A DNA stretch of 64,000 nucleotides. Origin: Microbacterium sp. No. 7. GTDB lineage: Bacteria > Actinomycetota > Actinomycetes > Actinomycetales > Microbacteriaceae. Of this stretch, positions 2,110-23,224 are shown piece by piece; position 1 is the first letter of the stretch, and every line of letters starts with the position of its first letter. The notes below the pieces were generated by a model, which had not been told where the DNA came from, did no database searches, and saw nothing but the letters and a program-made list of their open reading frames with translations. Both the position numbers and the translations under genes were made by a program. The stretch covers positions 1 through 64,000 of the forward strand of contig NZ_CP012697.1 of NCBI RefSeq assembly GCF_001314225.1. The letters are read 5' to 3'.

Positions 2110-3249
2110 GTGAAGTTCCACGTGAATCGCGATGTGTTCAGCGAGGCCGTGTCATTCGTCGTCAAGCTCCTGCCGCAGCGCAACCCGCAGCCGATCCTGG
2201 CCGGTGTGCTGATCGAGGCATCCGATGAGGGGCTGTCGCTCGCCGCGTTCGACTACGAGGCCTCGGCCCGCACGCTCATCGAGGCGACGGTCGACGAGCC
2301 CGGCACGATCCTCGTGCACGGCCGGCTGCTCTCCGACATCGCGAGCCGGCTGCCGAACGCACCGATCCAGATCCAGCAGGACGACGACGGCATCGTGCTC
2401 ACGTGCGGTTCCGCACGGTTCACCCTGGCATCCATGCCGGTGCAGGAGTACCCCGCGATCCCCGAGGTCTCGGGCGACGCGGGCCTCGTTCCCGGCGACG
2501 ACTTCTCGACCGCGATCTCGCAAGTGGCCTTCGCCGCGTCGCGCGACGACGTCACCCCCGTGCTCACGGGCGTGCAGCTCGAGGTCAAGGGCACCGAGCT
2601 GAGCCTCGTCGCGACCGACCGCTACCGCGTGGCGCTGCGCGACGTGCAGTGGGACGGCGGAGGCGTGGCCGGCGATGAGACCGCGACCGCGCTCGTGCCG
2701 GCGCGCACGCTCACCGAGGTCGGCAAGACGTTCGCGCACTCGGGCGACATCCAGGTGACGTTCTCGGGATCGGGCGATCGCGAGATCATCGCGTTCACGG
2801 CGGGCAACCGCACGGTGACGTCGCTGCTCATCAAGGGCAACTTCCCGCCTGTGCGCCGGCTGTTCCCCGAGCAGACCGACCACTACGCGGTCGTGAACAC
2901 GGCCGAGCTGGCCGAGGCGGTGCGTCGTGTGTCGCTCGTGCTCGACCGGTCGGCGCCGCTGCGCTTCACGTTCACGGGCGAGGGCGTGTCGATGGATGCC
3001 TCGGGCACCGAGCACGCCCGCGCGACGGAGTCGGTGGACGCGACCCTCACGGGCGAGGAGGTCACGCTCGGCCTCAACCCGCAGTACCTGCTCGAGGCGC
3101 TCACGGCCGTGAAGAGCGAGTTCACGCGCATCACGTTCACCTCGAGCGAGAACTCCAACAAGCTGAGCCCCGTGCTCATCACCCCGCAGACCTCCGGCAC
3201 CCCCGAGAGCTTCCGCTACCTGCTGCAGCCCAACCTGCTCCTCCGCTGA
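2110..3249 (+). CDS. dnaN: DNA polymerase III beta subunit (sliding clamp)
   Basis: DnaN forms the ring-shaped processivity clamp of the replicative polymerase and a hub for repair and lagging-strand enzymes. The 379-residue product begins VKFHVNRDVFSEAV at a GTG (2110), preceded by an AAGGGAG ribosome binding site. A longer in-frame reading from 2017 would run into the origin region and is unlikely. The sequence covers the three repeated clamp domains, including conserved stretches such as LVATDRYRVALR and GNFPPVRRLFP. It follows dnaA in the usual order. Confidence 0.97.
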   Translation: MKFHVNRDVFSEAVSFVVKLLPQRNPQPILAGVLIEASDEGLSLAAFDYEASARTLIEATVDEPGTILVHGRLLSDIASRLPNAPIQIQQDDDGIVLTCGSARFTLASMPVQEYPAIPEVSGDAGLVPGDDFSTAISQVAFAASRDDVTPVLTGVQLEVKGTELSLVATDRYRVALRDVQWDGGGVAGDETATALVPARTLTEVGKTFAHSGDIQVTFSGSGDREIIAFTAGNRTVTSLLIKGNFPPVRRLFPEQTDHYAVVNTAELAEAVRRVSLVLDRSAPLRFTFTGEGVSMDASGTEHARATESVDATLTGEEVTLGLNPQYLLEALTAVKSEFTRITFTSSENSNKLSPVLITPQTSGTPESFRYLLQPNLLLR

Positions 3250-3706
3250 CCGCACCGCCACCGCCACCCGCACACACCCCTGCTGGTTGAGTAGCCGCCG
3301 GAGGCGGCGTATCGAAACCCAGGTAACGGACCGTGGCAAGGGTCTCGATACACCGCCGGCTCCGCCGACGGCACTCGACCAGCGGGGTGTGATGCGGTCG
3401 GTCTGCGGGGTGGGAAGCAGTCGGTCTGCGGGGTGCTCACCCACATCACCCCCACCCCCGCTGGTTGAGTAGCCGCCGCAGGCGGCGTATCGAAACCCAT
3501 GTAGCGGTCCGTGGGAAGGGTCTCGATACGCTCGCGGCTTCGCCGCGAGCACTCGACCAGCGGAGGGGGAGGCGGGCCTTCGGCCGGCGGGGTGTGGACA
3601 AGCACCCACGAACCCCGCTGGTTGAGTAGCCGCCGGAGGCGGCGTATCGAAACCCGTCCCACGGACCGGCGGGCGGGGTGTCGGGGGCAGAGCATAGGCT
3701 GATGCG
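3250..3706. repeat. Spacer with three copies of the GGTTGAGTAG/GTATCGAAACCC inverted repeat
   Basis: The spacer between dnaN and recF has no gene. It carries two full paired units (3277-3387 and 3456-3563) and one half unit (3613-3655). Each left arm reads CTGGTTGAGTAG, a small GC hairpin, then GTATCGAAACCC. The opposing arm reads GGTCTCGATAC ... ACTCGACCAGCGG. Related copies lie at 11127-11280 and 23120-23224 and inside recF. They resemble REP-type intergenic repeats. Confidence 0.85.
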
Positions 3707-5251
3707 GTGATCGTGGAGCAGCTGAGTCTCGCCGACTTCCGCAACTATGCGGCCGTCGACGTGGCGCTGGTGGCGGGGGCGAACGTGTTCGTCGGCCGCA
3801 ACGGTCAGGGCAAGACGAACCTCGCCGAGGCGATCGCGTTCCTCGCGACGCTCGGATCGCATCGCTCCGCGACCGACGCGCCCCTCGTGCGCGACACGAC
3901 GGATGCCGCGTTCGTGCGTGCGCGTCTCGCGCACGGCGAGCGTCGCGTGCTGCTCGAGGTGCAGATCAATCGCGCCGGCTCGAACAAGGCCCGCGTCAAC
4001 GGATCGCCGGTGCGCACGGCGGAGCTGCCGCGCTATGCGCAGGTCGTGCTCTTCGCACCGGAGGATCTGCAGATCGTGCGCGGAGACCCGTCGTCGCGTC
4101 GCCGGTTCGCCGATCAGCTGCTGGTGCAGCGCGCGCCGCGCATGGCGGGCGTGCTCGCCGACTACGACCGCGTCGTGAAGCAGCGCAATGCGCTGCTCAA
4201 GTCGGCGCGGGCGCGCGGCGTCCGCGGTGAGGGACTGTCGACGCTCGAGGTGTGGGACGACAAGCTCGTGCAGCTCGGCACGGATGTCGTCCGCGCGCGG
4301 CTCGCGCTGGCCGACGCCCTCGCGGTGCCGGTGGCGGAGGCCTACGCGTCGATCGCCGGCGCGGACCACCGACCCGAGCTCGAATGGGCGCTGAGCATCG
4401 CGGGCGTGGACGCCGAGGACGACGAGGCGGGTTTCGATACGCGGCCTGCGGCCGCTACTCAACCAGCGGGGGTTCCTGCCCAACCATCGGGGGGGTCTGT
4501 TCGATCAACGGGGGATGCTGCTCACCCCTCCGGGGGTCCTACCCAGTCCCCCGGGGGTCCTGCCCAACCAGCGGGGGTTCCTGCCCGATCAGCGGGGGAT
4601 GCCGCTCACCCCTCCGGGGATGTTGCTCACCGCCCCGGGGATGCTGCTCACCCCTCCGGGGTTCTTGCCCAACCACCAGGGGTTCCTGCCCAGTCCTCCG
4701 AGGTTCCTGTCCAGCCAGCCGGGGGGCCTGCTCGATCACTGGGGGATGCTGCCGGATCGGGGTTGGGGTTCGCGGGGGAATTCGCTGATCGAGTGCCGTC
4801 GTGGAGCGACGGCGTATCGAGATCGCCGCTCCCGTCGGCCGACGACATCGCGGCGCAGTTCCGCACCGCTCTCGCGGCGCGGCGCTCGAGCGAGCTCGAG
4901 CGCGGGGTGACGCTCGTCGGCCCGCACCGCGACGACCTGCAGCTGCGGGTGCGCGGTCTGCCGGTGAAGGGCTATGCGTCGCACGGCGAGTCGTGGTCGG
5001 TCGCCCTCGCGCTGCGCCTGGCATCCGCCCGGCTGCTGCGGGAGCAGTCGGTGCTCGGCGATCCGATCGTCATCCTCGACGACGTCTTCGCCGAGCTCGA
5101 CGCCGATCGCCGCGACCGGCTGGCGGGCATCGTCGCCGACTTCGAGCAGGTCATCGTCACGGCCGCCGTCGAGAATGACGTGCCGCCGGCGCTGCGCGCC
5201 CGCACGGTGTGGGTCGAGGCGGGCACGATCCGGGAGCCGTCCGATGACTGA
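3707..5251 (+). CDS. recF: DNA replication/repair ATPase RecF with a repetitive internal expansion
   Basis: RecF is an SMC-like ATPase that helps RecOR load RecA at gapped DNA. The 514-residue product has Walker A GRNGQGKTN near residue 30, the RecF signature around GPHRDDL, and Walker B VILDDVFAELD near residue 455. It starts at GTG 3707 (MIVEQLSLADF). The normal family length is roughly 370-400. The excess comes from residues about 242-370, a low-complexity Pro/Gly/Ala/Ser stretch of near-repeats such as VPAQPSG and DAAHPSG. That stretch is bounded by the two arms of the chromosomal inverted repeat, translated as GFDTRPAAATQPAG at one end and a GVSRSPLPS-like segment at the other. The catalytic motifs on both sides stay in frame. 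The gene overlaps dciA by 8 bp. Confidence 0.95.
   Translation: MIVEQLSLADFRNYAAVDVALVAGANVFVGRNGQGKTNLAEAIAFLATLGSHRSATDAPLVRDTTDAAFVRARLAHGERRVLLEVQINRAGSNKARVNGSPVRTAELPRYAQVVLFAPEDLQIVRGDPSSRRRFADQLLVQRAPRMAGVLADYDRVVKQRNALLKSARARGVRGEGLSTLEVWDDKLVQLGTDVVRARLALADALAVPVAEAYASIAGADHRPELEWALSIAGVDAEDDEAGFDTRPAAATQPAGVPAQPSGGSVRSTGDAAHPSGGPTQSPGGPAQPAGVPARSAGDAAHPSGDVAHRPGDAAHPSGVLAQPPGVPAQSSEVPVQPAGGPARSLGDAAGSGLGFAGEFADRVPSWSDGVSRSPLPSADDIAAQFRTALAARRSSELERGVTLVGPHRDDLQLRVRGLPVKGYASHGESWSVALALRLASARLLREQSVLGDPIVILDDVFAELDADRRDRLAGIVADFEQVIVTAAVENDVPPALRARTVWVEAGTIREPSDD
4429..4823 (+). repeat. Inverted-repeat arms plus tandem GC repeats inserted inside recF
   Basis: One repeat arm (GTTTCGATAC, GC hairpin, CTACTCAACCAGCGGGGG) occupies 4429-4473. 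The opposite arm (GATCGAGTGC ... GCGTATCGAGA) occupies 4787-4823. Between them lie many imperfect units of roughly 20-30 bp built on GTTCCTGCCCAACCAGCGGG and GATGCTGCTCACCCCTCCGGG. The total keeps the recF frame open. Confidence 0.85.
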
Positions 5252-5753
5252 CGGGATGCCCGCATCCGGCGCCGAGCGCGTTCCGGAGACCGTCGCGACC
5301 TATCTGCGGCTGCGCGGCCTCGAGCCGTCGTCACGGTCGTCGCGCCGCCGCCGGCGCCGCAGCGATCCCGATGACGAGAACCAGCCGTTCACGGCCGGTC
5401 GCGACCCGAAGGGCGTCGGCGACGTGCTCTCCGACCTCACCCGCAGCGCGGGCTGGGAGTCGCAGCTGGCGCGCGAGGATCTCGTGCGGCAGTGGTCCGA
5501 GGTCGCCGGCGCCGAGACGGCGCAGCACTCGTCGCCGGTCGGCCTCACCGACGGCATGCTCACGGTGCGCTGCGACTCGACGGCGTGGGCGAAGAACCTG
5601 CATCTCATGCGCGCCGTGATCCTCACCGAGATCATGCGGCGCTTTCCGGAGGCGGGCGTCACCGGCATCCGTTTCATCGGGCCGGACGTCCCCTCCTGGA
5701 AATGGGGGCCGAGAGCCGTTCCAGGGCGGGGCCCTCGCGATACCTACGGATGA
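5244..5753 (+). CDS. dciA: DUF721 / DciA-family protein
   Basis: DUF721 (DciA) proteins act with the replicative helicase DnaB in bacteria that lack DnaC, and the gene sits beside recF and gyrB in actinobacteria. The 169-residue product has a basic N-terminal segment (SSRRRRRRSDPDDENQ) and the C-terminal DUF721 domain, with the characteristic core SEVAGAETAQHSSPVGLTDG and WAKNLHLMRA. The ATG at 5244 overlaps the recF stop, which suggests translational coupling. No unusual feature is seen. Confidence 0.88.
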   Translation: MTDGMPASGAERVPETVATYLRLRGLEPSSRSSRRRRRRSDPDDENQPFTAGRDPKGVGDVLSDLTRSAGWESQLAREDLVRQWSEVAGAETAQHSSPVGLTDGMLTVRCDSTAWAKNLHLMRAVILTEIMRRFPEAGVTGIRFIGPDVPSWKWGPRAVPGRGPRDTYG

Positions 5754-11126: not shown

Positions 11127-11280
11127 CCCCCGCTGGTTGAGCAAGACCAACCCCGCTGGTTGAGTAGCGCGCGCAGCGCGCGTATCGAAACCCGTGTATC
11201 GGTCCGTTACACGGGTTTCGATACGCCGCCTGCGGCGGCTACTCAACCAGCAGGGGTTGTTACTCAACCAGCGGGGGTTG
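11127..11280. repeat. Inverted-repeat cluster upstream of tRNA-Ile
   Basis: This is a GGTTGAGTAG/GTATCGAAACCC repeat pair with very long arms (left CTGGTTGAGTAGCGCGCGCA, right GTTTCGATACGCCGCC...), flanked by extra half arms (GCTGGTTGAGCAAG at the left, TACTCAACCAGCGGGGG at the right). It lies downstream of the DUF3566 gene and could fold into a terminator-like structure. Confidence 0.85.
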
Positions 11281-11352
11281 CGGCGGCCGCGATTTCGATT
11301 TGGCCGACGAATCCTGTACAGTCTTGGAGGTTGACAGCCGCATGGCTGGCAC

Positions 11353-11426
11353 GGGGCTATAGCTCAGGCGGTTAGAGCGCTTCACTGATAATGAAGAGGT
11401 CCCAGGTTCAAGTCCTGGTAGCCCCA
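11353..11426 (+). tRNA. tRNA-Ile (GAT)
   Basis: This 74-nt cloverleaf has acceptor GGGGCTA paired with TAGCCCC plus discriminator A. The D-arm is GCTC...GAGC, the anticodon loop CTGATAA reads anticodon GAT, and the T-arm is CCAGG TTCAAGT CCTGG. No CCA is encoded. It sits just after gyrA/DUF3566, a common actinobacterial position. Confidence 0.97.
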
Positions 11427-11434
11427 CCCCGAAC

Positions 11435-11462
11435 AAGGCCAAGCGAGACATCGCTTGGCCTT
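11435..11462 (+). terminator. Hairpin terminator after tRNA-Ile
   Basis: Perfect 12-bp arms AAGGCCAAGCGA (11435-11446) and TCGCTTGGCCTT (11451-11462) with a 4-nt loop lie directly after the tRNA. A second hairpin, CCCCGCGTCGCT/AGCGACGCGGGG, follows at 11472-11498. Confidence 0.8.
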
Positions 11463-11498
11463 CGTCATTTCCCCCGCGTCGCTCGGAGCGACGCGGGG

Positions 11499-11754
11499 CG
11501 GAACGAACGACCTCCTGCAACGATGCGGACGAAACGTCGTTCTCCGGCGCGTTCTCGAGCACTTCTCGGGTTTTGTGGCACGTAACCGCACCGTCATCTT
11601 CCCGACAGCAAACTAAGTGCCAGCGCGACGAAGCCGACGCAGAACTGCGCGACCTGATCCTTCAACATGCTGCGAACGCGCACGGCACGAGAGACGCCCA
11701 GCGTATCGCGGTTCCCGCTTCCCTTCCGGAAAACCGACACATTGCAGGTGGACA
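11499..11754 (+). promoter_or_regulatory. Spacer upstream of dctP
   Basis: No convincing gene is present. The promoter of the TRAP transporter operon should lie here, but no clear -35/-10 pair or operator can be picked by eye. An AGGTGG ribosome binding site precedes the dctP ATG. Confidence 0.4.
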
Positions 11755-23119: not shown

Positions 23120-23224
23120 CCCCGCTGGTTGAGTAGCGCGCGCAGCGCGCGTATCGAAACCCATGTATCGGTCCGTTACACGGGTTTCGATACGCCGCCT
23201 ACGGCGGCTACTCAACCAGCGGGG
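23120..23224. repeat. Inverted repeat between patB-like and glutamate dehydrogenase genes
   Basis: This is a full GGTTGAGTAG/GTATCGAAACCC pair. Left arm CCCCGCTGGTTGAGTAG with a GCGCGC hairpin and right arm CGGCTACTCAACCAGCGGGG form a structure of about 100 bp. It sits between two convergent genes and may act as a bidirectional terminator. Confidence 0.85.

Follow-up and report, generated by a model that had tools for sequence, protein, structure and literature searches.

The recF gene of Microbacterium sp. No. 7 in all likelihood carries coding palindromes which work in the manner of the RPEs of Rickettsia, are tolerated in the linker of RecF and were enlarged there by duplication of the tail of a REP-like repeat, with recurrence in MetH, Lhr and DusB of the same genome. 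The window, i.e. the whole stretch of DNA analyzed, comprises positions 1 to 64,000 (64,000 nucleotides) of contig NZ_CP012697.1. Its recF region contains the following features:

3282..3656, no strand assigned: five REP arms clustered in the dnaN-recF spacer, ending approximately 50 bp before recF
3707..5251, plus strand: recF, 514 amino acids, GTG start, open frame, TIGR00611
4430..4825, plus strand: REP-derived insert from arm to arm, recF residues 242-373, open in the recF frame
4428..4471, minus strand: REP arm 1 in recF, GGTTGAGTAG type, exact strict match at 4434-4464
4460..4731, plus strand: tandem array of the REP tail in recF, 13 units of 21 bp (7 codons), detected by TRF
4789..4822, plus strand: REP arm 2 in recF, TCGAGTG type, in inverse orientation to arm 1, read as DRVPSWSDGVSR in translation, exact pattern match

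Both arms of the insert are REPs and lie in frame. A chance match can be dismissed for arm 1, since the strict arm pattern (GGTTGAGTAG...CGTATCGA) occurs at 165 exact places in the 4.83 Mb genome and at none when it is read backwards. Over 44 nt, arm 1 is 93% complementary to the REP at 3613-3656. For the array TRF gives 13.0 copies of 21 bp with 70% matches and 0% indels; weaker 21-bp units may extend it to about 4752, and heptads such as PAGVPAQ and PSGDVAH are read from it. An earlier note had placed a repetitive block with repeat arms at its edges at 4429..4823. This is correct within a few bases, and arm 1, the 21-bp array and the inverted arm 2 were found there. A search of 3200-5300 against Rfam gave no match.

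The insert is exactly in frame and leaves the conserved motifs of both RecF halves intact. The product matches TIGR00611 with 275.9 bits (cut-off 172) in two stretches, and the conserved columns GRNGQGKT and LDDVFAELD are retained, so that the repeat-derived in-frame expansion between both ATPase halves, with translation staying open through the block, stands as the note had described it. While one must keep in mind that all three forward frames run open through most of the array, if not its whole length, which makes the frame weak evidence for our explanation and led us to reject the open frame as coding evidence for the insert, the same openness would be expected if RecF were decaying and the insert persisted under relaxed selection, its frame open as a GC-rich repeat has few stops. 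The RecF tree points in this direction as well: the root-to-tip distance of this RecF is 0.88 compared to a median of 0.80 (241 of 269 tips are nearer to the root), and this rather long branch, which also counts against the explanation favored by us, may reflect a partial relaxation of selection on this RecF. Decay is nevertheless unlikely in view of the intact flanking motifs, the lack of indels over 13 units, and the like inserts in metH, lhr and dusB, all of which score above their NCBIfam cut-offs.

An assembly artefact appears very improbable. The exact RecF protein is listed on a single contig, as one might expect from an artefact, but the site is located in a 4.60 Mb contig of a three-contig genome with an estimated completeness of 99.99%, the array units differ from one another, the frame is kept, and the same kind of insert is present in three other genes.

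Between the EW and QFR motifs, the RecF linker comprises 158 aa in the window compared to a median of 34 aa and a maximum of 71 aa in 328 others. These stem from 129 other loci of the genus (29 loci and 100 stretches), 80 GTDB r220 loci listed and 119 protein matches from the best 120 of 8000, and some genomes may appear in more than one of the three sets. A recF match was obtained in 192 of the 198 genus genomes searched, including the present one. The earlier note had proposed an alignment of relatives' RecF as a check of whether residues 242-370 occur elsewhere, and none of the 328 linkers is longer than 71 aa. The estimate of about 130 added residues holds for the insert itself (242-373) but not for the net gain, which amounts to 113 aa compared to the nearest RecF (P0002, 401 aa) and to 79-130 aa compared to the 119 homologues listed (384-435 aa); the net gain is smaller because relatives already have a short variable linker at that site. 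The expansion was also said to be unusual, which is true of its length, unmatched in the 328 other linkers, but it is no isolated oddity, as REP-derived peptides and inserts recur. For the recF insert we identified neither a close strain with an empty site nor a target duplication, a point against the explanation favored here; with respect to the MITE criterion (TIRs and target-site duplication), the linkers of the relatives have diverged too far for an empty site to be defined.

We aligned 550 peptides, translated from REP arms of this genome, to 266 distinct RecF linkers of at least 12 aa, the first 12 framework residues being left out. Scores of 43 or more were reached by 13 of the 266 linkers, with a maximum of 42 in 1064 shuffles. 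As controls, 600 N-terminal RecF segments of 30 aa gave a maximum of 34 and 103 distinct DnaA linkers a maximum of 46. The threshold was raised from 43 to 47 because two of the DnaA linkers score 45 and 46; the test depends on composition, and DnaA linkers score up to 46 without evident REPs. At 47 and higher, above all controls, 11 of the 266 RecF linkers remain, namely P0062 (Microbacterium sp. bgisy203), P0003, P0020, P0006, P0037, L039 together with P0042, P0065, the P0075 group, P0100, P0115 and P0111. P0102 (M. lacticum, score 43) and P0031 (45) are above the shuffles and below the stricter line of 47. In several further lineages of Microbacterium, REP-derived peptides are present in this very linker of RecF.

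On a tree of RecF calculated with FastTree from 272 rows with the linker removed, the REP label at threshold 43 (23 rows, including the present one) requires 9 changes, gains and losses not being told apart, and at least five of the changes are forced by well-supported branches. P0003 and P0006, which are 0.04 apart on the tree, have quite different linkers. When DNA was compared, 2 of the 201 RecF loci were conspicuous, one from Microbacterium (L039, genome G169, score 54) and one from Agromyces (L182, Agromyces sp. Marseille-P2726, score 46), the maximum of 201 codon shuffles being 30; L182 does not stand out in the peptide comparison (score 34). The Curtobacterium locus L190 has a DNA score of 32, just over that maximum, and is not claimed as REP-bearing. 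A DNA pattern for REPs in recF gave one match each in 7 of 366 genus genomes, none of them recF by sequence and those in G001 and G034 not by position either; this pattern added no case to those found with DNA, gave two matches in its reversed control, and assumes a spacing other than that of recF in the window.

The in-gene survey covered 68 clusters with 270 arms from the window and fetched stretches. In a codon-usage test, 5 of these clusters were classed as in-gene, 56 as intergenic and 7 as in the same frame with an intervening stop. Cluster 695338, called intergenic, was found on inspection in the lhr reading frame, which changes the counts to 6, 55 and 7 and leaves 62 of the 68 clusters outside genes. 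We thus count at least six REP-derived in-frame inserts in four genes, recF, metH (two), lhr (two) and dusB. This number is a minimum, since the test missed the real case at 695338 and may miss others, and since the survey drew on approximately 100 of 165 and 100 of 147 listed places. The inserts outside recF are:

C1:3586718-3586933: metH insert 1, consisting of an arm, tail repeats and an inverted arm, 72 aa
C1:3584474-3584608: metH insert 2, made up of three 39-nt arm units
near 697390 and near 695338: the two lhr inserts
near 2442432: dusB insert

The three genes are identified by matches over the cut-off (metH by TIGR02082 with 1308 bits, lhr by NF007284 with 1807 bits, dusB by TIGR00737 with 361 bits). 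Their inserts are located at or adjoining breaks in these NCBIfam matches, which for lhr and dusB are what homology shows of the inserts, and the Pfam Dus match bridges the dusB insert. The plan of arm, tail array and inverted arm is common to recF and metH insert 1. Both of these and the two lhr inserts are read in the [LF]DTx frame, metH insert 2 and the dusB insert in other frames. Among TCGAGTG-type arms, a 32-nt core is present in 7 of 7 arms in genes compared to 13 of 114 elsewhere (Fisher p 1.2e-6; before the correction of 695338, 6 of 6 compared to 14 of 115, p 1.0e-5) in a non-random sample, as one set of stretches was chosen for listed places that the sample still lacked, with arms of both lengths. 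The arm at 896689, which was also checked by eye, was not called by the codon-usage test and is not counted as in-gene, and the same holds for the other fetched REP clusters not named here.

The comparison of MetH included 119 other proteins. At site 1, four of 51 distinct linkers of at least 8 aa score 50-66 (the P0137 group, P0233, P0122 and P0124), the maximum of 255 shuffles being 43. Of 66 distinct sequences, 59 have a site 2 of 25-26 aa, and no relative tested there has the REP family of this genome above shuffles. The array at site 2 of the present MetH itself scores 46 compared to a shuffle maximum of 47, and the REP nature of metH insert 2 therefore rests on the DNA. We further observed what seems to be another translated repeat family in P0125 and P0163 at site 2 and in the P0165 group and P0125 at site 1, with GDVSSRSARSTPG in tandem and VVERGAQRRDETE as examples; more than one repeat family may enter MetH. 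Site 1 of the Agromyces terreus MetH (P0221) contains a tandem 8-residue repeat similar to APASLPPRPAG.

The family itself is abundant in this genome. In addition to the 165 places of the strict arm pattern, the partner pattern TCTCGATAC...GCACTCGA is found at 147 places genome-wide and at none when read backwards. The arms have a core of 28-35 nt and are arranged as inverted pairs and clusters. Folding of four arms as DNA gave z-scores of -1.9, -0.3, -1.4 and -3.3, the last for arm 2 in recF, and one of the four is not distinct from shuffles. GTAG stands beside the stem in TTGAGTAG arms, where TCGAGTG arms have GTGC. Within the genus the strict pattern occurs in 18 of 198 genomes including this one, the next richest having 25 copies. 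No gene for a RAYT (Y1_Tnp, PF01797) was detected in this genome, for which reason we call the family REP-like, and this lack of a transposase of the REP kind counts against the explanation preferred here. PF01797 is present in one of the 198 genus genomes (G041, C15:20980-21342), which has no strict REP copy. Two further pairs are located between genes of the window:

11158..11280, no strand assigned: intergenic REP pair including two copies of a 21-bp tail repeat at 11240-11280, from REP patterns and TRF
23127..23217, no strand assigned: second intergenic REP pair, from REP patterns

A candidate ORF at 11260-11562 on the minus strand takes its last codons (PPLVE and stop) from the REP tail, which supplies the stop codon.

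Tail arrays of 21 bp are not restricted to genes. They also occur at the intergenic REP clusters L269, L270, L283, L304 and L306, and other periods are found at intergenic clusters, e.g. 14, 19, 20, 23 and 24 bp. We therefore reject the idea that coding selection made the 21-bp period; the step appears to belong to the REP tail and happens to suit the reading frame. The changes among 14 array units in recF fall on the three codon positions in a ratio of 22/20/29, and 48 substitutions are non-synonymous and 23 synonymous (32% synonymous compared to 27% expected). This is no clear signal of purifying selection on the array peptide, a notion which is left unsupported and whose failure weighs against our explanation. 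While the frame is preserved, no preservation of the peptide is visible, and the unit changes look near-neutral. This near-neutral pattern, the like arrays between genes and the restriction of the long array to one genome among the RecF linkers compared make it quite improbable that the array was selected for a function beyond tolerance, e.g. as a RecF linker with a regulatory or spacing role, even if the repeated use of the same linker in several lineages and the exact periodicity of 7 residues would agree with such a role.

Other arrays were seen in addition. In L026 at 1593-1873 (near C1 410.4 kb) a 24-bp unit (GCGGGGGTGGCGCGACCCCGGCCG) is repeated 11.4 times, with REP pairs on either side; this array is intergenic by the codon-usage test. 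A different pair of 21-bp arrays is located at L284 1869-2167 (approximately C1 1261368-1261666) and L280 3044-3258 (approximately C1 3338543-3338757). One of these comprises 8.7 copies with 100% identity (AGCACCCTCGCGGGGACAACC), and each lies beside a partner array, seemingly partly inverse.

A hint as to how RecF could bear the insert arises from the AF2 model, in which pLDDT is below 50 at residues 236-284, 286-356 and 363-368, a stretch between the strand 223-228 and the helix 378-391. The linker is probably disordered according to this model, which is weak elsewhere too (residues 25-102 are equally low, mean pLDDT 60) and is no proof of the fold. The note's suggestion that the block could change the folding or regulation of RecF is conjectural, with such low pLDDT values over most of the insert and near-neutral changes among the array units.

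We propose the following course of events. A pair of REP-like palindromes, moved by some agent, would have entered the naturally variable RecF linker in frame, and the sequence between the arms could then have grown as the REP tail was duplicated in tandem; each such duplication adds 21 bp, exactly seven codons, and so leaves the frame undisturbed. This growth might be due to slippage or to template switching from one tail to another, perhaps helped by the REP cluster ending approximately 50 bp before recF. Changes or units breaking the frame would be lost by selection on a RecF that presumably still works, with the inserted residues drifting almost freely in a loop made tolerant by its probable disorder. 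A like process may have acted on MetH, Lhr and DusB in this genome and also, in relatives, on RecF and MetH.

The best-known coding palindromes are those of Rickettsia, a genus of obligate intracellular bacteria for which genome decay is an easy excuse. Microbacterium is known as a free-living genus. The same process would here concern proteins of repair, methionine synthesis, tRNA modification and a helicase in an actinobacterium with a large genome. The RecF linkers provide a natural series of alleles with no REP, one arm, two arms, and two arms with an array, which makes it testable how an important fold tolerates a load of selfish DNA, and the spread of REP-like repeats without the usual transposase becomes testable as well. 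It is conceivable, if rather doubtful, that a RAYT-free REP family of Microbacterium and its relatives includes the 32-nt TCGAGTG arm as a gene-entering subtype, a portable maker of disordered linkers that time and again remodels the same loops in the core enzymes RecF, MetH, Lhr and DusB, with tail minisatellites giving fast in-frame changes in length. If true, coding palindromes would be a means of protein evolution in bacteria other than the Rickettsiales.

Among the matches listed from the open-licence literature on REPs and coding palindromes in Actinobacteria and Microbacterium we recognized no description of this family, and Microbacterium is absent from the main text of the RepRanger paper. 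Both ATPase halves align with those of the solved RecF structures (2o5v, 5z67-5z69, 5zwu, 8a8j), residues 5-205 and 385-493 with 8-197 and 227-331 of 2o5v_A; the difference is in between, where this RecF has 179 residues (206-384) and 2o5v has 29 (198-226). The cited sections on GTAG REPs and BIMEs describe, as here, short high-copy palindromes in inverted pairs and clusters, mostly extragenic, with GTAG beside the stem as in one arm type of this genome.(PMC3733652) The same sections name GTAG repeats for Proteobacteria, Cyanobacteria, Chloroflexi and the PVC superphylum.(PMC3733652) In contrast to these, the present family has a second arm type with GTGC, no Y1_Tnp/RAYT in the genome and some translated copies. 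In-frame palindromes in genes are known from the Rickettsia RPEs.(PMC10969869, PMC3733652) The present family differs in its phylum, in inserts where two inverted arms may enclose a tandem tail array, and in that most arms in our sample are intergenic. What it has in common with the RPEs and other protein-coding palindromes, at the level of description, is that palindromes lie in frame in unrelated genes and are tolerated by the host proteins, as set out in the cited parts of these reports.(PMC10969869, PMC3733652)
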